Positions 23,021 through 42,943 of a DNA stretch of 64,000 bases are shown here, piece after piece (within the stretch, counting starts at the first letter, position 1; every line of letters starts with the position of its first letter). Source of the DNA: Cellulomonas fimi (GTDB lineage: Bacteria > Actinomycetota > Actinomycetes > Actinomycetales > Cellulomonadaceae). The DNA lies in the NCBI RefSeq assembly GCF_028583725.1, contig NZ_CP110680.1:248001-312000 (forward strand). Reading direction: 5' to 3'. The position numbers and the translations under genes were made by a program. The notes beneath the pieces are model-generated. The model was not told the origin of the DNA. It saw nothing but the letters and a program-made list of their open reading frames with translations, and searched no databases.

Positions 23021-23103
23021 GGTCAGCGACAACGGCAAACCTGCCGCGAGGCAGGGACGCAAAGCCATGGGGCCCTCGTGGTCCGCCAGGCTGCCGAACG
23101 ACC
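23021..23103 (+). promoter_or_regulatory. Cyclic-di-GMP-I (GEMM) riboswitch
   Basis: The conserved core is present in order: GGCAAACC (23034-23041), P1b stem CCTGCC-GCGA-GGCAGG (23040-23055) capped by a GNRA tetraloop, then GGGACGCAAAGCC (23054-23066), a variable P1c arm and CTGCCGAAC (23091-23099). P1 closes with GGTC (23021-23024) and GACC (23100-23103). The element ends 2 bases before the ribosome-binding AGGGGG (23105-23110) of the GH26-like gene. Ligand binding could therefore change access to the ribosome site, or couple to transcription. GGGG/CCCC near the start codon could form the alternative anti-ribosome-site stem. Confidence 0.92.
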
Positions 23104-23119: not shown

Positions 23120-25021
23120 ATGCGCACGCCTGCGCCCGTCCAGGGCGTCCTCCGCCATGCCCACCACCGACCCACCGCCCGCACCGCGCTGCTCGCCGCC
23201 GGGGTCGCCGCGCTCCTCGTGAGCGGTCTCACTGCACCCGCCGCGGCCGCCGAGCCCGCACCCGCACCGTCGACCGCGAGCGCCGCGCTCACGCCCGCGT
23301 CGGGCCTGCTGTTCGGCGCCTTCGTCGCGACCGGCTCGTCGGCGAACGTGGACGACGCCGTCGCCGCGTTCGAGCACACGGTCGGCCGCAAGCTCGACGT
23401 CCAGCGCGTCTACCGCCGGTGGGGCGACGACCTGCGGGCGGGCGGGGTCGCGTCCGCCGTCGCGCGCGGACGCACGCCCGCCGTGTCCGTCGCGTCCAAG
23501 CGGGCCGACGGGACGGCCGTGTCCTGGGCGTCGATCGCGCGCGGCGACCACGACGCCGCCATCGCGGCGCAGGCCACGACCGTCGCGGGTCTCGGCGTGC
23601 CGATCTTCCTCACGTTCCAGCACGAGCCCGACTACGCGACCGGCTACGGCACCCCCGAGGAGTACCGCGCGGCGTGGCGCCACTACGTCGAGGTGTTCCG
23701 CGAGCGCGGCGTGCGGAACGTCGTGTGGACGTGGATCGTCACGCCCGCGGCGTTCGCGACCGGCTCGACGAGGCCCACCGCCGACGCGCTCTACCCGGGC
23801 GACGACGTCGTCGACTGGGTCGGGCTCGACGTCTACAACTGGTCCGGCTGCAACCCGGGCGGCCCCACGTCGTGGAGCCCGGTCGCGAGCCAGTCCGCCG
23901 CGGCCCGCACGTTCGCGCAGGCGCACGGCAAGCCCGTCATGGTCGCCGAGTGGGGGTCCGTCGAGGACCCCGCCGACCCGCAGCGCAAGGCGGGCTGGCT
24001 GCGCGACGCGATGGCGACGTGGACCGCGTGGCCCGAGGTCAAGGCCGTCCTGTACTTCCACCAGCAGGGCAGCTGCCCGTGGTGGGTGGACTCGTCGCCC
24101 GCGAGCCTCGCGGCCTTCACCGAGATCGCCGCGCGGCCGGCCGCGCGCACCCGTGCGAGCGCGTTCCTCGACGTGTCGACGACGCACGGCAGCGCACCCC
24201 TGACCGTCACGCTCGACGCGTCCCGGTCGTCCGGGGCGGGCCACGTCGCGGGCGCGGGCGTCGCGTCGTGGACCCTGGACCGCGGCGACGGCACCCCCGT
24301 CCTGACCGGCACGGGGACGCCCCTGGCGACCCTCACGCACACGTACGCGGCCGGGACGTGGAACCCGCGGCTCACCGTCACCGACGCCGGCGGGCGCGCG
24401 GTGACGGACGCCGTGACGCTGCGCGCCGCCCCGGCCCCGACCGTCACGGTCTACGCCAAGGACGTGACGACGACCGGCGCGACGTCGCAGGCGCTCGTGG
24501 ACCCGCACGGGTACGCGGGGACCGTCCAGGTCGAGTGGGGGACGAGCACCGCGTACGGCACACGCGGTGCCGTCGTGAGCGTGCCCGCCGTGTCGTACAT
24601 GCGGACCGTGAACCAGCCGCTCACGGGGCTCGCGCCCGGCACGACCTACCACGTGCGCACCACGACCATCACGCCGGCCGGCACGACCGTCACGACGAGC
24701 AGCTTCGAGACCGCGGGCCGCCCCACGTCGTCGCGGCAGTACACGTCCGGGACGACGCCCACGTCGACCTCGTTCGGCGCTCAGGTCCACCCGCACCGCC
24801 TCGCCACGACCGCGTGGTTCGAGTGGGGTCCGACGACGGCCCTCGGGTCCCGGTCGCCCGTGACCGACGTCGCCGCGCTGACGTACGAGAAGACCGTGAC
24901 CAGCGGCGTCGTCGACGGGCTCGCGCCCGGCACGACGACCTACTACCGCGTCGTCGCGCAGAACGCCGCCGGCACGTTCGTGGGGCCGGTCCTCAGCGTC
25001 AGGACCCCGCGGCTGCCCTGA
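23120..25021 (+). CDS. Secreted GH26-like hydrolase with PKD and FnIII-like modules, under c-di-GMP riboswitch
   Basis: 633 residues. A Sec signal peptide (about 1-44, ending AAAAEP) leads to a GH26-like catalytic barrel of about 55-340. The acid/base is Glu169 (FQHEPDY) and the nucleophile Glu277 (VMVAEWGSVED), the spacing expected for the family. A PKD-like domain follows (about 345-437, with WTLDRGDGTPVLTGTG and HTYAAGTW), then two related FnIII-like repeats (about 441-535 and 540-633, each with YHVRTTT- or YYRVVAQNA-type strands). GH26 enzymes cleave beta-mannans or beta-1,3/1,4-glucans. The start ATG 23120 sits 9 bases after the AGGGGG next to the c-di-GMP riboswitch, so I infer matrix or cell-wall glycan remodelling tied to lifestyle switching. 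Confidence 0.88.
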   Translation: MRTPAPVQGVLRHAHHRPTARTALLAAGVAALLVSGLTAPAAAAEPAPAPSTASAALTPASGLLFGAFVATGSSANVDDAVAAFEHTVGRKLDVQRVYRRWGDDLRAGGVASAVARGRTPAVSVASKRADGTAVSWASIARGDHDAAIAAQATTVAGLGVPIFLTFQHEPDYATGYGTPEEYRAAWRHYVEVFRERGVRNVVWTWIVTPAAFATGSTRPTADALYPGDDVVDWVGLDVYNWSGCNPGGPTSWSPVASQSAAARTFAQAHGKPVMVAEWGSVEDPADPQRKAGWLRDAMATWTAWPEVKAVLYFHQQGSCPWWVDSSPASLAAFTEIAARPAARTRASAFLDVSTTHGSAPLTVTLDASRSSGAGHVAGAGVASWTLDRGDGTPVLTGTGTPLATLTHTYAAGTWNPRLTVTDAGGRAVTDAVTLRAAPAPTVTVYAKDVTTTGATSQALVDPHGYAGTVQVEWGTSTAYGTRGAVVSVPAVSYMRTVNQPLTGLAPGTTYHVRTTTITPAGTTVTTSSFETAGRPTSSRQYTSGTTPTSTSFGAQVHPHRLATTAWFEWGPTTALGSRSPVTDVAALTYEKTVTSGVVDGLAPGTTTYYRVVAQNAAGTFVGPVLSVRTPRLP

Positions 25022-33203: not shown

Positions 33204-34610
33204 TCAGCCGTCCTCGGCGACGCCCGTCGGGCGCGGCGGCGCGGGGTGCTCGACGGCGCTGCCGACGTCGCCGTCGGCGGCGCCGCGCTGCCGCGGGACC
33301 GCGCCGCGCGGGTCGACGCAGTCGGCGACCTCGCACGCGGCGACCGCGGCACCGGCGGTGGGCGACGGCGACTCGTCCTCGACGGCGCGCGGGACGCGCA
33401 CGTCGGCGGTCGTCGCGTCGGGGCGGGGGCGCAGCGTGCGGTAGGCGGCGAGGGTCGCGACGAGCGCGAGGACGGCGGACACGATGACGACGAGGAACCC
33501 GCCGTGCGACCCGTCGGCGTCGATGCGGGACCCGGCGATCGACGAGCCGAAGGAGACGCCGACACCGAGCGACGTGCCGACCCAGGTGAGCCCCTCGGTG
33601 AGGCGCGCGGGCGGGACGAGCTGCTGGACGAGCGCGTTGCCGTTGATGAGCGTGGGCGCGATCGCGAACCCGGTGACGAACATGACGGCGGCGAGCACGA
33701 CGAGGTTGGTCGCGACGACGAAGAACGACACCCCGACGGCGAGGACGACGACGCCGATCGCGAACCGCTGGTGCAGGGGCCGGACCCAGTGCCGCGTGCC
33801 GTAGAGCAGGCCGGCGATGAGCGACCCGAACGCGAACACCGCGAGGATGACGCCGGCGATGCCGGTGTTCCCGGACTCCTCGGCGAACGCGACGGTGGAC
33901 ACGTCGGTCGCGCCGAAGATCGCGCCCATCGCGACGAAGACGAGCGCGAGCACGACCATGCCGGGGTTGGCGAGCACGGACCCGCGGACGCGCTCGCCGC
34001 CGGCGGCGACGGTCGGGGCGGGCTCGGTCGCGCGGAGCGCGAGGAACCAGTACCCGCCGACGAGCAGCGCGACGAGCGGGACGACGAGGCCGGCGGCGGG
34101 GTCGACACCGGTCGCGAGGACGGTGGCGAGGACGGGGCCGACGATGAAGACGAACTCGTCGATGGTCGACTCGAGCGCGTAGGCGGTGTGCATGGGGCGG
34201 GGGTCGCCGCCGAGCACGCCGGACCAGCGGGCGCGCACGAGCGAGCCGAACGACCCGACGGCGGCGCCCGTGACGGCGGCGGCGGCGTAGAGGAGCCACG
34301 GGTTGCTGTCGGCGCGGGCCGCGACGACGAGCGTGACGAGCCCGACGGACGCGACGGCGACGGCGGGACGCATGACGCGCGCCTGCCCGTGGCGGTCGAC
34401 GAGCCGCGCGAGCTGCGGCGAGCACAGGGCCTGGGCGACGACGTAGACGGCGGAGACGCGGCCGGCCAGCCCGTAGGAGTCGTACAGCGCGGAGATCATG
34501 AGGACGATGCCGATCCCGATCATCGACATCTGGAGGCGCGCGACCATCCCCGCGACGGAGAAGGCGAGGGCACCCGGGCGCGACAGGATCTCGCGGTAGG
34601 GCTGGAGCAT
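33204..34610 (-). CDS. MFS transporter
   Basis: 468 residues with twelve predicted helices and motif-A-like ARLVDRHGQARVMRP after helix 2. A long Asp/Glu/Ala-rich C-terminal tail of about 80 residues contains two cysteines. It belongs to the broad drug-resistance/unknown-substrate MFS group. Start ATG 34610 close to the divergent GNAT gene, sharing a 74-base promoter region. Confidence 0.82.
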   Translation of the reverse strand: MLQPYREILSRPGALAFSVAGMVARLQMSMIGIGIVLMISALYDSYGLAGRVSAVYVVAQALCSPQLARLVDRHGQARVMRPAVAVASVGLVTLVVAARADSNPWLLYAAAAVTGAAVGSFGSLVRARWSGVLGGDPRPMHTAYALESTIDEFVFIVGPVLATVLATGVDPAAGLVVPLVALLVGGYWFLALRATEPAPTVAAGGERVRGSVLANPGMVVLALVFVAMGAIFGATDVSTVAFAEESGNTGIAGVILAVFAFGSLIAGLLYGTRHWVRPLHQRFAIGVVVLAVGVSFFVVATNLVVLAAVMFVTGFAIAPTLINGNALVQQLVPPARLTEGLTWVGTSLGVGVSFGSSIAGSRIDADGSHGGFLVVIVSAVLALVATLAAYRTLRPRPDATTADVRVPRAVEDESPSPTAGAAVAACEVADCVDPRGAVPRQRGAADGDVGSAVEHPAPPRPTGVAEDG

Positions 34611-34684
34611 GCTCCCAGTCTCGCACCGCGCTCCGACGGCGGCCGGGGCTGGTGGTGGGGCGCCGGGTGCCGCACCATCGGTGC

Positions 34685-34975
34685 ATGACGGACGTGCTGG
34701 TCAGCGACGCGCCCGAGGCGCACCGGTTCGAGGCCCGCGACGCGGCGGGCGAGCTCCTGGGGTTCGCGGTGTACGACGTGGTGGGCCGGACGGTGGTGTT
34801 CACGCACACCGAGGTGGACCCGCGCGCGGAGGGTCGCGGGGTCGCCGCGACGCTCGTGCAGGCGGCGCTGGACGCGGTGCGCGAGAGCCACCGGGACGTC
34901 GTGGCGCTGTGCCCGTACGTGAAGGCGTGGGTCGCCCGTCACCCGGAGTACCAGGACCTCCTGCACCGGCCCTGA
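34685..34975 (+). CDS. GNAT-type N-acetyltransferase (short, YjdJ-like)
   Basis: 96 residues, the short single-domain GNAT_3-like type. VVFTHTEVDPRAEGRGVAATLVQAAL contains the acetyl-CoA pyrophosphate-binding RxEGRG motif, and LCPYVKAWVARHPEY closes the domain. Members acetylate small amines or protein N-termini; the target is unknown. It is divergent from the MFS gene and upstream of the exopolysaccharide leader. Confidence 0.85.
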   Translation: MTDVLVSDAPEAHRFEARDAAGELLGFAVYDVVGRTVVFTHTEVDPRAEGRGVAATLVQAALDAVRESHRDVVALCPYVKAWVARHPEYQDLLHRP

Positions 34976-35389
34976 GGGCCTCGGCGACGTCCCGTCGGCG
35001 GCTGTCGTCCGGAGCAACTTCTTGTAAATTTCGTGTGAAGTTGCCTCGGGCAAACCGGACATCTCCGGTCAAGGGGTAAGCGCTTGCGGTGAGCGCGGTC
35101 ACTTTTGGACAAGTGTCCGTCTAAATCCCCTGTTACCGCCTGGTAAGTTCGATTTACCGAGTTCGCCGGGCGCTGTCATCCGTGTGCCTGTCCCCGGCTT
35201 CGGATCGTGCGCCTCCATCAAGCAGGGGGCGGTTGCGCACGTCCACTCGCAGGTCAACGGCCTGCCAGTGGTCTCTCGACGCGCCTGTGGGGGCCTGCGC
35301 GCTTCCCACGGTGACGTCCATGCTGGATCGCCGACGACGCCGGGACAGCCCGTCAGTAATTCGCCACCACCGTGTCGGGTAGGCAATTC
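34976..35389 (+). promoter_or_regulatory. Dyad-rich leader of the exopolysaccharide operon
   Basis: This 414-base gap is AT-richer than its surroundings and crowded with inverted repeats. GCAACTTC/GAAGTTGC (35014-35021/35037-35044), ACCGGA-CATC-TCCGGT (35054-35069), palindrome AAGCGCTT (35078-35085), GGACA/TGTCC (35107-35118) and TTACC-GCCT-GGTAA (35133-35146) are all present. LacI/GntR-type sites and a structured 5' leader are both plausible. I tested it by eye for the c-di-GMP riboswitch core and did not find it. No gene is convincing in 35150-35389 on either strand. Confidence 0.5.
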
Positions 35390-36895
35390 ATGTTCGTATT
35401 CGTGCTTCAGCTGCGTCATATGCTGGAAGGGCAGTCGGAGTTTTATCTCTTCGCTGTCTTCTCCACGCTGATCTGGGCGTTGTGGCTGCTCAAGGTCCTT
35501 CTCTCACGTCGGTACAAGCCGTACACCGGCGAGTTCCACGGCACCACCTCCGTCGTCGTCCCCGTCGTCGACGAGCCCCTCGACCTCTTCCACGACGTGC
35601 TCTCGCGGATCGTCGCGCAGCAGCCCGACGAGGTCATCGTCGTCATCAACGGCAAGCCCAACCCGGGCCTCGAGCGCGTCAGCGAGGAGTTCGCGCCGCT
35701 CGTCCGCTGGGTCCACACCCCGATCCCGGGCAAGCGCAACGCCGTCAAGATCGGCACCGAGATGTCGCGCGGCGAGATCACCGTGCTCGTCGACTCCGAC
35801 ACCGTCTGGACCGACGGCACGCTCCCCGAGCTCGTCAAGCCGTTCGCCGACGCCAACATCGGCGGCGTCACCACGCGTCAGCGCATCCTCGACCCCGAGC
35901 GGTCCTGGATCACCCGCTGGGCCGACTGGCTCGAGAACACCCGCGCGCTCTACTCGATGCCCGCGCAGTCCGCGCTCGGCCAGGTCGGCTGCCTCCCCGG
36001 ACGCACCATCGCGTTCCGCCGGCACATCCTCATCGACGTCATGGACGACTTCATGCACGAGAAGTTCATGGGCGTCTTCCTCGAGGTCTCCGACGACCGC
36101 ACGCTCACCAACCTGACCCTCAAGGCCGGGTACAAGTGCGTGTACCAGTACACGAGCCTCGTCTACACGGACGCCCCGCTGCAGGTGAAGAAGCTCTTCA
36201 AGCAGCAGCTGCGCTGGGCCCGCGGCAGCCAGTACAACACCCTGCGGATGCTGCCCTGGATGATGGGCCACGCCCCCGTCCTGGCGATCTTCTTCGTGAT
36301 GGACATCATCCTGCCGTTCCTGCTGGTCGGGACGATCGCCGGCTGGGTGTACCGCGCCGTCTCCGGCACGGGCGTGAACCTCTACCAGGCGATCCTCGAG
36401 ACCTACACCGGCCTCGAGGGCTGGGTCTGGGTCGTCGCCACGATGATCATCTCGTCGGTGCTGTCCATGGCGATCCGCCAGATCCGCCACCTGCACGAGA
36501 AGCCGTCCGACTTCCTGCGGCTGCCGATCTTCATCATCGTCTCGACGTTCTTCCTCATGCCGGTCCGCCTGCTCGGGTTCCTGCGCATGGCGCACGCGTC
36601 CGGCTGGGGCACCCGCGCCGGCGCCTACGCCGGCGGCGACCTCATGGAGGAGCTCGAGAACGCCCCGCAGGCGCCCGTCGACCTCGTCGACCGCGCCCCC
36701 GACGGCGTCGTCCCGAGCCAGCGCTCCGCCGACGGCACCGTCCTGACCGAGGCACCGACCCGCGTCCGCCGCGCCACCGCGGCCGCCGCACCGGCCCCCG
36801 CGCCGCGTCGCCGTCGCCGTCTCAACCCCCTCGCCGGCATCCCCTACGTGGCCGCCGTGCTGATCTTCGCCCTGGAGGCACTCGTCTATGTCTGA
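35390..36895 (+). CDS. Processive GT2 polysaccharide synthase, hyaluronan-synthase-like
   Basis: 501 residues. One N-terminal helix (about 17-38) precedes the GT-A domain. The expected acidic and pairing residues are all there: Asp61 (VPVVDE), DSD 135-137, the acceptor-site SDDRTLTN (234-241, like GDDRxLTN of HAS/NodC) and the processive signature QQLRW (272-276). Three further helices (about 297-320, 345-364, 377-398) form the channel, then a Pro/Ala/Arg-rich tail and a final helix (about 482-501). No PilZ domain is fused. It probably extrudes a beta-linked polymer while adding UDP-sugars. ATG 35390 with GGGTAGG is chosen. The 8-base overlap with the GH26 gene and the downstream UDP-glucose dehydrogenase define the operon. 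Confidence 0.85.
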   Translation: MFVFVLQLRHMLEGQSEFYLFAVFSTLIWALWLLKVLLSRRYKPYTGEFHGTTSVVVPVVDEPLDLFHDVLSRIVAQQPDEVIVVINGKPNPGLERVSEEFAPLVRWVHTPIPGKRNAVKIGTEMSRGEITVLVDSDTVWTDGTLPELVKPFADANIGGVTTRQRILDPERSWITRWADWLENTRALYSMPAQSALGQVGCLPGRTIAFRRHILIDVMDDFMHEKFMGVFLEVSDDRTLTNLTLKAGYKCVYQYTSLVYTDAPLQVKKLFKQQLRWARGSQYNTLRMLPWMMGHAPVLAIFFVMDIILPFLLVGTIAGWVYRAVSGTGVNLYQAILETYTGLEGWVWVVATMIISSVLSMAIRQIRHLHEKPSDFLRLPIFIIVSTFFLMPVRLLGFLRMAHASGWGTRAGAYAGGDLMEELENAPQAPVDLVDRAPDGVVPSQRSADGTVLTEAPTRVRRATAAAAPAPAPRRRRRLNPLAGIPYVAAVLIFALEALVYV

Positions 36896-38408
36896 GCACA
36901 CCGCCCACGGCTGGTGGACCCGGGCCATCCGACCGTCCCCCCGCAAGCGGCTGACCGCAGCCGCGATCGCCCTCGCGCTCATCGCCGTCACCGTCGGCGT
37001 CTGGCTGTCGCCGTCCGTCGACGGCGTCGTCCCGACCCGCGCCTCCGCCGAGGAGCTGCGGCTCCAGGCGGAGAACGACAAGCTCCGCAACTCCCTGGAG
37101 GCCCGCGAGCAGGAGGTCCTCGACCTCGAGCGCTCGCAGCGCAAGGCCGCCTCCGAGCGGTCCGCCGCCGCCGAGCGCGGCAAGGCCAAGGCCGCCGAGG
37201 AGAAGGCCGCGGCCGACGCCGCCGCGCAGCAGAAGGCCGCCGAGGAGCAGGCCGCCGCCAAGGCCGCGTCCGCCGCCAAGGCCGCGACCGAGAAGAAGGC
37301 CGCCGCCGAGCGCGGCAAGGCGCGCGACCGTGCCGAGCGGGCCGAGGCCGCGCTCGCCCGGGCCCGTGCCGCGGCCGCCACGCCGTCGTCGTCCGGCCCG
37401 GCGCCCGAGGTCAAGCCCACGGCCCCGTCGCTCGCCGAGCTCCGGCAGCCGACGGCCCGCCAGTTCGGCCTCTACACCCCGCAGGCCCCGTTCAGCTGGG
37501 CCGAGCAGGACGCGGTCGCCGCGCAGGTCGGCACGCAGCCGAGCATCGTCGGCTACTTCCAGGGCTGGGACGGCAACTTCCGGGCCGACGCCGTGACGCG
37601 CTCGTGGGCCAAGGGCGCCATGCCCATGCTCACGTGGGAGTCGCGGAACCTCGCGACGGCGAACGACGTCGTCGAGGAGCCCGAGTGGTCCCTCAAGGAG
37701 ATCATCAACGGCCGCTACGACGCCTACCTGCGGCAGTACGCCGCCGACGTCACGGCCCTCGGTCTGCCCGTCGCGATCCGTCTCGACCACGAGATGAACG
37801 CGTCCTGGTACCCGTGGAACGAGCAGGGCTCCGGCGGCGCGTCCGTCAACGGCAACAGCCCCGGCGAGTACGTGGCCATGTGGCGTCACGTGCACGACGT
37901 CTTCGAGGCCGCCGGCGCGAACCAGTACGTGCTGTGGGTGTGGGCGCCGAACATCGTCAACAACCTGCCCGCCGCGAACCAGTCGCTCGCCTACACGAAG
38001 TCGCTCTACCCGGGTGACGAGTACGTCGACTGGGTCGGACTGTCCGGCTACTACCGGCCGCCGTACCGCGACGGCCAGACGCCGACCTTCGCGTGGACCT
38101 TCGACAAGTCGCTGGACCAGCTGCGCTCGATCACGCACAAGCCGATCTTCCTCGCGGAGATCGGGGCGTCGGAGAGCGGCGGCCAGAAGGCCGCATGGGT
38201 CACCGACCTGTTCGACGCGCTGGCCAAGCCGGAGAACGCCGACGTCGTCGGGTTCGCCTGGTTCAACCACGCCGTCACCACCATCAGCCAGGGCGAGCGC
38301 CTCACCAACGACTGGCGCGTCGAGTCGCGCGCCGACTCCCTCGCCGCCTTCGTCGAGGGTCTGCACGACCCCGCCGCAGGCTTCGCCCTCCCGGGCGGTG
38401 CGTCATGA
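36888..38408 (+). CDS. Membrane-tethered coiled-coil GH26 protein of the exopolysaccharide operon
   Basis: 506 residues. A membrane anchor (about 22-40) is followed by a Lys/Ala/Glu-rich coiled coil (about 52-165) and a linker (to about 190). The GH26 barrel carries RLDHEMNASWYPW (acid/base Glu302) and IFLAEIGASES (nucleophile Glu424), matching the family pattern; both carboxylates are present, so it should be active. The coil would hold the enzyme at a fixed distance outside the membrane. Overlap with the synthase suggests it trims, releases or proofreads the nascent polymer. A related soluble GH26 gene under a c-di-GMP riboswitch lies at 23120. Confidence 0.85.
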   Translation: MSEHTAHGWWTRAIRPSPRKRLTAAAIALALIAVTVGVWLSPSVDGVVPTRASAEELRLQAENDKLRNSLEAREQEVLDLERSQRKAASERSAAAERGKAKAAEEKAAADAAAQQKAAEEQAAAKAASAAKAATEKKAAAERGKARDRAERAEAALARARAAAATPSSSGPAPEVKPTAPSLAELRQPTARQFGLYTPQAPFSWAEQDAVAAQVGTQPSIVGYFQGWDGNFRADAVTRSWAKGAMPMLTWESRNLATANDVVEEPEWSLKEIINGRYDAYLRQYAADVTALGLPVAIRLDHEMNASWYPWNEQGSGGASVNGNSPGEYVAMWRHVHDVFEAAGANQYVLWVWAPNIVNNLPAANQSLAYTKSLYPGDEYVDWVGLSGYYRPPYRDGQTPTFAWTFDKSLDQLRSITHKPIFLAEIGASESGGQKAAWVTDLFDALAKPENADVVGFAWFNHAVTTISQGERLTNDWRVESRADSLAAFVEGLHDPAAGFALPGGAS

Positions 38409-38455
38409 CGCCCGCGACGCCCACTGCCAACCCCCGCCGTTCTAGGAGAAACGAC

Positions 38456-39853
38456 ATGACCGAGCAGCACACCGAGGACCTCACGGTCGCGGACCACTTC
38501 CCCCGTCGCGTGTTCGACGCCGACGCCCCCGCCCCCCGCATCTCGGTGCTCGGCACCGGCTACCTCGGCGCCACGCACGCCGTGTCGATGGCCGCGCTCG
38601 GCATGGAGGTCGTCGGGTACGACGTCGACCCCGCCAAGGTCGCCGCGCTCCAGGCCGGCAAGGTGCCCTTCTACGAGCCCGGGCTGCCCGAGCTCCTCGA
38701 GGAGCAGCTCGCCACCGGCCGCCTGCGCTTCACCTCCGACGTCGCCGAGGCCGTGGCCTTCGCGGACGTGCACTTCGTGTGCGTCGGCACGCCGCAGACC
38801 AAGACGAGCCACGCCGCGAACCTGTCCTTCGTCGAGGCCGCCACCACGGCCATCGCGGAGAACCTCACGCACGACGCGCTCATCGTCGGCAAGTCCACCG
38901 TGCCCGTCGGCACCGGTGCGCGCCTGCGCCAGCTGGTCGCGCAGAAGGCCCGCACGGACGTCCGCGTCGAGCTCGTGTGGAACCCCGAGTTCCTCCGCGA
39001 GGGCAAGGCCGTCCAGGACACGCTGCACCCCGACCGCATCGTCATGGGCGGCACCACCGCCGACTCCGAGGCGCTGCTGCGCCGCGTCTACGAGACGCCC
39101 ATCGCCGAGGGCACCCCGGTCGTCGTCTGCGACCTGCCCACCGCGGAGCTCGTCAAGGTCAGCGCCAACGCGTTCCTCGCGACCAAGATCTCGTTCATCA
39201 ACGCGATCGCCTCGGTCTGCGAGGCCGCCGACGCCGACGTGACCGTCCTGGCCGACGCGCTCGGCCACGACGTGCGCATCGGTCGCCAGTTCCTCGACGC
39301 CGGTCTCGGGTTCGGCGGCGGCTGCCTGCCGAAGGACATCCGCGCCCTCATGCACCGCGCCAACGAGCTCGGTGCGCACCAGGCGTCCGCCCTGCTCCAG
39401 CAGGTCGACGAGATCAACATGGGCCAGCGCGGCCGCGTGATCGACCTCGCCCTCGAGGCGTGCGGGGGCTCCGTGCTGAACCGCCGGGTCGGCGTCCTCG
39501 GGGCGGCCTTCAAGCCGCACACCGACGACGTGCGTGACTCGCCGGCCCTCAACGTCGCCGCGGCCCTGCACCTGCGCGGTGCCCAGGTCACCGTGTACGA
39601 CCCCGAGGCCGGCGACACCGCCCGCGCGTCCTTCCCGACGCTCGGCTACGCGACCTCCGCCGAGGAGGCCGTCGAGGGTGCGGACGTCGTCCTCGTCCTC
39701 ACCGAGTGGGACGAGTTCGTCGGCGCCGAGCCGGCGAAGCTCGCCGCCCTCACGCAGAACGCGAACGTCATCGACGCGCGCGGCAAGCTCGACCCGCAGC
39801 GCTGGCGCCAGGCCGGCTGGTCCTTCCGGGGCCTCGGCCGCACCGCCGCCTGA
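38456..39853 (+). CDS. ugd: UDP-glucose 6-dehydrogenase
   Basis: 465 residues. The N-terminal Rossmann motif GTGYLG (33-38), Lys at 244 (LATKISF) and catalytic nucleophile Cys290 (GFGGGCLPKD) are intact, as is the C-terminal UDP-binding domain (AFKPHTDDVRDSP). It oxidises UDP-glucose to UDP-glucuronate with two NAD+. Start ATG 38456 has AGGAG upstream. Its place directly after the HAS-like synthase and GH26 genes points to a uronic-acid-containing polymer. Confidence 0.93.
   Translation: MTEQHTEDLTVADHFPRRVFDADAPAPRISVLGTGYLGATHAVSMAALGMEVVGYDVDPAKVAALQAGKVPFYEPGLPELLEEQLATGRLRFTSDVAEAVAFADVHFVCVGTPQTKTSHAANLSFVEAATTAIAENLTHDALIVGKSTVPVGTGARLRQLVAQKARTDVRVELVWNPEFLREGKAVQDTLHPDRIVMGGTTADSEALLRRVYETPIAEGTPVVVCDLPTAELVKVSANAFLATKISFINAIASVCEAADADVTVLADALGHDVRIGRQFLDAGLGFGGGCLPKDIRALMHRANELGAHQASALLQQVDEINMGQRGRVIDLALEACGGSVLNRRVGVLGAAFKPHTDDVRDSPALNVAAALHLRGAQVTVYDPEAGDTARASFPTLGYATSAEEAVEGADVVLVLTEWDEFVGAEPAKLAALTQNANVIDARGKLDPQRWRQAGWSFRGLGRTAA

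Positions 39854-41266: not shown

Positions 41267-42943
<1,677 letters not shown>

Follow-up and report, generated by a model that had tools for sequence, protein, structure and literature searches.

The present analysis covered 64,000 nucleotides of a Cellulomonas genome (the window) and points to a predicted synthase-dependent exopolysaccharide cassette, a reading to which a probability of about 0.58 is assigned, in which three co-directional genes forming one unit would produce a beta-linked glucuronate polymer while a tethered GH26 enzyme would cut the emerging chain (Table 1). The support counted for this proposal includes the presence of GH26 in 39/42 and of the dehydrogenase in 32/42 synthase copies, the recurring gene overlap, the apparently dedicated dehydrogenase copy, hyaluronan synthases (HAS) as the only strong solved match of the synthase, the lichenase-like character of the GH26, and duplicated units.

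Table 1. Features of the cassette and of the second GH26 locus, in window positions.
Feature	Positions	Strand	Basis
GT2 processive polysaccharide synthase, HAS/NodC-like, 501 aa	35390..36895	+	Pfam, NCBIfam, PDB comparison, alignment
8-nt overlap ATGTCTGA, GH26 start within synthase stop	36888..36895	+	Sequence; recurrence in relatives
Membrane-anchored GH26, 506 aa	36888..38408	+	Pfam, PDB comparison, TM-like segment
Single N-terminal TM-like segment of GH26, aa 22-40	36951..37007	+	Conserved WW (aa 9-10) before segment
GH26 stalk/linker, aa 51-180, Ala/Lys/Glu/Arg-rich here	37038..37427	+	Composition
GH26 catalytic domain, lichenase (CtLic26A)-like	37446..38363	+	PDB comparison, alignment
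Shine-Dalgarno-like AGGAGA of dehydrogenase gene	38444..38449	+	Sequence
UDP-glucose 6-dehydrogenase, 465 aa, GTGYLG and GFGGGCLPKD motifs	38456..39853	+	Pfam, NCBIfam
c-di-GMP-I-GGC riboswitch ahead of second GH26 gene	23025..23099	+	67.9 bits, gathering score 59
Second GH26, 633 aa, probably secreted, lichenase-like	23120..25021	+	Signal-peptide-like start by eye

The synthase frame opens with ATG at 35390 and closes with a stop at 36893-36895, and the GH26 frame runs from ATG at 36888 to 38408; both are marked as coding by GC3 values of 0.96-0.97. The dehydrogenase frame (ATG 38456, end 39853, with an alternative in-frame ATG at 38405 that overlaps the GH26 stop) was not listed by the crude coding filter, and its coding call rests on family matches. 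The overlap of the GH26 gene with the synthase gene, already claimed in the initial annotation, is borne out and recurs as the same 8-base pattern in 38/42 readable copies, window included (36 with ATGTCTGA and 2 with TTGTCTGA), which suggests translational coupling. The conserved WW at residues 9-10 is found in 38/38 copies with the overlap start, and overlap, WW and TM-like segment occur together in 38/42 readable copies; the N-terminal WW/TM-like element is absent from P0048, the sole case among 22 aligned proteins.

The cassette counts are based on 42 synthase copies fetched from relatives. Because the three-gene order recurs in 32 of these and the synthase-GH26 pair in 39, the order lies beyond chance, and the three-gene unit proposed in the initial annotation stands on its frames, family matches and gene order. 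Absence of GH26 from most homologous operons had been named there as evidence against the system; the opposite was found, as a GH26 catalytic domain lies directly downstream of nearly every synthase, and the three copies without it are on broken contigs that end 126-1226 nt past the synthase match. GH26 is the more constant partner, and the dehydrogenase is kept in several different flanking contexts. C. fimi (L005) carries all three genes. The flanking genes vary by clade while the cassette stays one unit, with the whole cassette tandemly duplicated in one genome (G039) and the synthase-GH26 pair in another (G009). Three pairs have no downstream dehydrogenase despite available sequence (G063, the second G009 copy and the C16 pair of G013), and these count against the proposal; all three genomes carry dehydrogenase-family genes at other places, and UDP-glucuronate could there come from elsewhere or be unused. 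A sample across the order (396 genomes, 109 genera) had the synthase in 12 genomes and 5 genera, a tally that includes the genome of the window and other genomes surveyed before, and among 98 relatives GH26 matches, as a raw count, occurred in 56 versus 34 with the synthase. One relative (G001) lacks the synthase but has a GH26 of the cassette type (63% identity) right where a contig begins, and a contig break is the probable reason.

The synthase carries the GT2 domain (Pfam GT2 models scoring up to 88 bits), acidic motifs and QxxRW of a processive polysaccharide synthase, and has TM-like segments near residues 16-34, 295-313, 344-362, 380-398 and 478-496; DSD, SDDRTLTN, QQLRW and WGTR are invariant in 21 aligned synthases. 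Hyaluronan synthases are its only strong relatives among solved structures (best E 1.3e-19), the first non-HAS match of the synthase profile being a different GT2 at E 2.2e-4. Chitin synthase appears at E 0.019, and none of the 19 PDB sequences matching the profile (E up to 10) is named as a cellulose or curdlan synthase. The alignment with HAS has GKR, DSDT, AQS...C, DDRxLTN, QQxRW and WGTR in common, and the CxxGPL segment, which from this alignment and general knowledge we take to belong with WGTR to the HAS signature, is CLPGRT in the cassette synthases, invariant across the 21-member alignment. The score against the NCBIfam NodC equivalog is 105.1 bits, with a cut-off of 550. This membrane enzyme probably produces an acidic polysaccharide and carries it out of the cell.

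The GH26 matches Pfam PF02156 at 46.6 bits (gathering score 20.2) and no NCBIfam family; PF02156 is matched in 22/22 members of the GH26 alignment and a carbohydrate-binding module in 0/22. Its closest solved relative is the C. thermocellum lichenase CtLic26A (E 4.5e-33), and the next PDB chains (YdhT, a beta-1,4-mannanase) lie at E 9.5e-10 and 1.7e-9, so that, judged by match E-values, the enzyme is nearest the lichenase and not the mannanases. CtLic26A belongs to an enzyme that breaks down plant polymers and is known to cut neutral glucan, and we know of no GH26 that acts on a uronate polymer. The catalytic HE and AE segments of the lichenase align with those of the cassette enzyme, in which H301, E302 and E424 are invariant across 22 aligned sequences; from the alignment and general knowledge of the family, E302 (37791-37793) is presumably the acid/base and E424 (38157-38159) the nucleophile. 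The GYNW segment of CtLic26A, in contrast, is GYxRP in 40/43 cassette GH26 frames, the exceptions being SYK in G063 and two frames without a match to the pattern (L090 and L122). A role of the GYxRP arginine as a uronate-binding residue tied to the dehydrogenase was considered and dropped, as the residue is clearly missing in only 1/43 frames (G063). The stalk measures about 143-201 residues in copies where measurable and, from its Ala/Lys/Glu/Arg-rich composition, is probably helical in this protein. However, the coiled-coil stalk of the initial annotation was rejected as a general feature, since a crude heptad-periodicity test gave 0.143, below the shuffle mean of 0.249, and the linker is richer in Ser, Gly and Pro in other clades. 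The membrane-anchored GH26 probably trims the polymer made by the synthase.

The third gene product scores 431.8 bits against NCBIfam TIGR03026 (cut-off 189.8) and 390 against TuaD (cut-off 700), and has the three-domain architecture PF03721, PF00984 and PF03720 with the catalytic Cys loop. The cassette dehydrogenase looks dedicated, because a second UDP-glucose dehydrogenase-like gene lies elsewhere in the same genome, beside genes read as polysaccharide genes.

Several known systems bear comparison. Co-operonic hydrolases include BcsZ (GH8) for cellulose, PelA for Pel, PgaB for PNAG and CslZ for CslA/GlxA. As in the cassette, each of these operons holds a processive synthase and an extracytoplasmic hydrolase; however, the cassette hydrolase is a GH26, its synthase is HAS-like and a nucleotide-sugar dehydrogenase is included. 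The initial annotation had proposed an undescribed system, and no description of the cassette appears among the open-access literature matches listed, but the cassette fits better as a variant within the familiar class in which a synthase shares its operon with a hydrolase than as an entirely new system. Class I hyaluronan synthase operons (hasA-hasB) likewise combine a GT2 HAS-like synthase with an operonic UDP-glucose dehydrogenase, whereas the cassette adds GH26 and contains a synthase whose resemblance to HAS is distant (E 1e-15 to 1e-19), with CLPGRT instead of CxxGPL and, as read from cassette sequences alone, a C-terminal TM-like segment after a variable linker. The pneumococcal type 3 capsule system has its own UDP-glucose dehydrogenase, Cps3D, and no GH26 partner known to us. 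Likened by description, its Cps3S is one GT2 enzyme that draws on both UDP-Glc and UDP-GlcA, and, as a lead only, primers printed in that paper translate to the ends MYTFILMLL and GTRNLTE, beside MFVFVLQLR and WGTR in the cassette synthase (PMC3912152). The wps-1 cluster of Actinoplanes missouriensis, of which all genes except wpsD are described as required for normal sporangia, is likened by description as an actinobacterial exopolysaccharide cluster with a GH26 gene (WpsE), although a Wzx/Wzy pathway operates there and a single processive synthase here (PMC13390465). Romboutsia ilealis RiGT2, again likened by description, is a Gram-positive GT2 whose beta-1,3/1,4 polymer is cut by lichenase; GH26 is mentioned 0 times in the main text of that paper (PMC10374906).

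It appears unlikely that the product is hyaluronan or a close GlcNAc/GlcA variant, with the GH26 as an unusual hyaluronan-trimming enzyme. Such a product would fit the strong match to HAS structures alone, the shared GKR, DSDT, DDRxLTN, QQxRW and WGTR motifs and the 105 bits of the NodC model, and the HAS-like similarity suits a GlcNAc/GlcA polymer equally well, a point against the main proposal; however, the NodC score is far under its cut-off, CxxGPL is replaced by the invariant CLPGRT and, to our knowledge, GH26 is not among the hyaluronidase families. An operonic UDP-glucose dehydrogenase is a described HAS partner (PMC10939387). A neutral beta-glucan, mixed-linkage or curdlan-like, trimmed by a lichenase-like GH26 next to a dehydrogenase that is a mere neighbour or serves another pathway, would agree with the nearest GH26 relative, with the pairs that have no downstream dehydrogenase and with the curdlan-type polymer reported for Cellulomonas (PMC3544764), but the retention of the dehydrogenase in most copies across several flanking contexts and the PDB matches of the synthase, with no named cellulose or curdlan synthase and chitin synthase only at 0.019, make this improbable. 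Very improbable is a cell-surface GH26 for foreign plant beta-glucan or mannan, co-transcribed by happenstance: Cellulomonas degrades plant polysaccharides and its genome paper groups GH26 with mannan degradation (PMC3544764), yet the GH26-synthase pairing and overlap are steady, the genome of the window also encodes a distinct GH26 that spans positions 1-264 of the 311 in the Pfam model, and none of the 22 aligned members matched a carbohydrate-binding module.

The second GH26 is a possible partner of the cassette, and the riboswitch ahead of its gene is possibly related to it. This protein also has weak PKD/Fn3-like C-terminal matches. No riboswitch was found before the synthase (34600-35500, E up to 1), nor at gathering scores in the cassette loci of 11 relatives, which gave one tRNA only. 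Between 34600 and 40100 there was no match to a sigma-70-like promoter and there were 5 terminator-like matches (1.4 expected), none of them between the dehydrogenase and 40100. A degenerate box (CTGNATCGCC-like) lies 53-67 nt before the start in 17/39 upstream stretches. The phosphoglucomutase gene at 41267-42943 was treated as a neighbour, its cluster being present in only 13/42 loci.

The proposed glucuronate-polymer cassette would operate as follows. The dehydrogenase would convert UDP-glucose to UDP-glucuronate, which the HAS-like synthase would polymerise together with another UDP-sugar (UDP-glucose being the likeliest), and the resulting beta-linked chain would leave through a channel that the synthase itself forms in the membrane. 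The GH26, presumably translated in a coupled manner from its overlapping start and anchored in the same membrane, would be held above the exit by a spacer of some 150 residues and cut or trim the emerging chain, thereby setting its length or releasing it. In favour of this reading, the beta-1,3/beta-1,4 backbone that lichenase cleaves (PMC10374906) resembles that of the Glc/GlcA type 3 polymer (PMC3912152). An extended version, speculative and rather unlikely, holds that an acidic beta-glucan not yet described, similar to cellobiuronan (Glc/GlcA, beta-1,3/1,4), is produced by Cellulomonas and its relatives, that the dedicated, co-translated, tethered GH26 acts on uronate-containing chains, and that the secreted GH26 under c-di-GMP riboswitch control removes the same polymer at a lifestyle change. 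If true, the proposal would provide Cellulomonas and related actinobacteria with a compact three-gene route to an acidic exopolysaccharide, would make GH26 a participant in synthase-dependent polymer biosynthesis, and would offer a clean single-synthase model of a tethered hydrolase shaping a growing polymer.

The three-gene cassette is real and conserved. It lies in a single-contig genome of 4.49 Mb that, judged from its nearest proteins, is that of a Cellulomonas (the tethered GH26 shares 96% identity with a protein of C. algicola), and its genes lie one behind the other on the plus strand, all in the same direction, with the synthase stop containing the GH26 start codon (ATGTCTGA) and AGGAGA preceding the dehydrogenase ATG; a second possible in-frame dehydrogenase ATG overlaps the GH26 stop. 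An MFS transporter gene stands upstream on the opposite strand, and a CPT-like protein gene, then a phosphoglucomutase gene on the opposite strand, lie downstream. A degenerate CTGNATCGCC-like box at window 35323-35333 also occurs at the same place in some relatives; of the 39 upstream stretches, 17 have such a box, 53-67 nt ahead of the start of the synthase.

Features of the cassette and of the upstream GH26 locus (window positions)
Feature	Position	Strand	Basis or remark
GT2 synthase, 501 aa	35390-36895	+	family matches, reading frame
Tethered GH26, 506 aa	36888-38408	+	family matches, reading frame
UDP-glucose dehydrogenase, 465 aa	38456-39853	+	family matches, reading frame
Second GH26, 633 aa, signal-peptide-like start	23120-25021		10-12 kb upstream of cassette
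c-di-GMP-I-GGC riboswitch	23025 onward		Rfam; ends 20 nt before second GH26 start

With a search threshold of E up to 1e-60, 34 of 98 related genomes, the own genome counted, carried the synthase (39 copies in total), and so did 12 of 396 genomes of an order-wide sample that includes the own and already counted genomes. DNA was examined around 42 copies (38 from the relatives' set, the window's own excluded, and 4 new from the order-wide sample), and GH26 was scored as a partner if its catalytic domain lay on the same strand at most 1.5 kb downstream of the synthase. The initial annotation had proposed a three-gene operon and had named the absence of GH26 from most homologous operons as a refuting result; the operon is upheld and the survey gave the opposite of that result: the GH26 domain follows in 39/42 copies and the sequence of the other three stops 126, 478 and 1226 nt past the synthase match. 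One of these three (stretch L078) has a GH26-like frame, its first 161 residues visible, with WW and a TM-like segment. The dehydrogenase lies downstream in 32/42; among the ten copies without it, three have sequence available, and in the other seven the contig runs on for no more than 2.8 kb; one of the seven is L097, where the dehydrogenase is absent from the ~1.2 kb beyond the GH26 catalytic domain. Flanking genes in the clustered loci vary by clade (MFS/phosphoglucomutase, gamma-glutamyltransferase-like, ClpB-like and others; names read by eye from sequence, except the family matches to MFS and phosphoglucomutase). Because the GH26/dehydrogenase pairing and the overlap recur while flanks differ between clades, and because genome G039 (L082) carries a tandem duplication of the full triplet as two complete sets, the cassette is maintained as a unit across relatives.

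Among 42 readable copies in the overlap survey (41 from relatives plus the window; L104, which runs off its contig, was left out), 38 share an 8-base synthase/GH26 overlap, 36 as ATGTCTGA and two as TTGTCTGA. The other four are L073 (broken contig), L105, L106 and L080, the last reading ATGCGTGA, which the search pattern used rejected. All 38 GH26 proteins starting at the overlap have a single hydrophobic segment and, close to the N-terminus, WW; the latter is missing in one of 22 aligned homologues (P0048). The coiled-coil stalk previously proposed seems not to be a kept feature: since spacer composition shifts from Ala/Lys/Glu-rich to more Ser/Gly/Pro-rich while the distance from TM to catalytic domain stays at ~143-201 aa in measurable copies, the conserved property seems to be length.

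In profile searches of PDB sequences, hyaluronan synthases (HAS) were the only strong relatives of the synthase (1.3e-19), the next matches being a different GT2 (2.2e-4) and chitin synthase (0.019); its score against the NodC model was 105 bits, far under the 550 cut-off. GKR, DSDT, DDRTLTN, QQLRW and WGTR are retained, whereas the HAS CxxGPL segment reads CLPGRT. The closest solved relative of the tethered GH26 is the C. thermocellum lichenase CtLic26A (4.5e-33), YdhT and mannanase chains being much weaker matches (9.5e-10 and above), and H301, E302 and E424 are invariant among 22 aligned sequences. A published GH26 tree separates lichenases from the mannanase branches (PMC6556568).

In the most probable model, the dehydrogenase, a typical family member, makes UDP-glucuronate, which the synthase would join with a second UDP-sugar and export through itself, as HAS polymerises and exports through the same protein (PMC10939387); coupled translation would produce the GH26 at that site, and the enzyme would then cut the chain outside the cell. 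The lichenase-like GH26 favours a beta-1,3/beta-1,4 backbone, linkages reported for the Glc/GlcA chain of pneumococcal type 3 (PMC3912152) and for hyaluronan, with GlcNAc (PMC10939387). Since the GH26 is lichenase-like and the CxxGPL segment is changed, glucose would be favoured as the second sugar. The predicted polymer likely contains uronic acid. Against a Glc/GlcA chain stand three synthase-GH26 copies without a downstream dehydrogenase. None follows the second copy of the tandem triplet plus synthase-GH26 in G009 (L099), although the first copy's dehydrogenase sits just upstream of it; none follows the G013:C16 pair, whose contig stops ~1.7 kb past GH26; and none lies within the 7.9 kb searched near the G063 pair. 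These three genomes carry dehydrogenase-family genes elsewhere, and UDP-glucuronate could therefore be supplied in trans. The G063 pair (L106, 6203-11506) belongs to another family, with an acyltransferase/SGNH-like gene (read by eye) just upstream on the same strand; O-acylation of its polymer by that product is possible. The own genome has two further dehydrogenase-family members above cut-off: by eye, one looks UDP-ManNAc-type, and the other, UDP-glucose dehydrogenase-like (L125, G000:C1:846000-853000), adjoins polysaccharide-type genes (ligase/polymerase-like, flippase-like, pyruvyltransferase-like).

The second GH26, probably secreted, has ~30% identity to the tethered enzyme. Its closest match, too, is the lichenase, with which it shares YNW where tethered enzymes have YxRP. 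The riboswitch precedes second-type GH26 genes in five genomes, the own and four others of the genus (G006, G008, G011, G013), in all four of which Rfam confirmed it on fetched DNA; none reached gathering score for six further relatives of the second GH26 (45-70% identical). The synthase is present in all five, and in G013 a divergent synthase-GH26 pair (L105, G013:C16, 1735-7139) lies back to back with the riboswitch-GH26 gene. GH26 activity in the neighbourhood of the cassette is thereby tied to c-di-GMP signalling, and the second GH26 is a possible further player that might act on the same polymer. Two more c-di-GMP riboswitches occur in the own genome (G000:C1:1816729-1816803 and 4250430-4250503).

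Among the matches listed from open-access full-text literature, none describes the cassette, which is apparently undescribed. The nearest published case among them is a GH26 gene inside a Wzx/Wzy-type cluster in a 2026 Actinoplanes paper, whose authors state that they knew of no previously characterised such cluster involving GH26 (PMC13390465). A Cellulomonas genome paper groups GH26 with mannan degradation and names, for each genome, two GT2 genes whose identity to curdlan synthase is 35-39%; the cassette synthase might be one of these (PMC3544764). The proposal of an undescribed system stands in part: the general kind, a single synthase with a co-operonic hydrolase, is already known, but the combination of parts is new.
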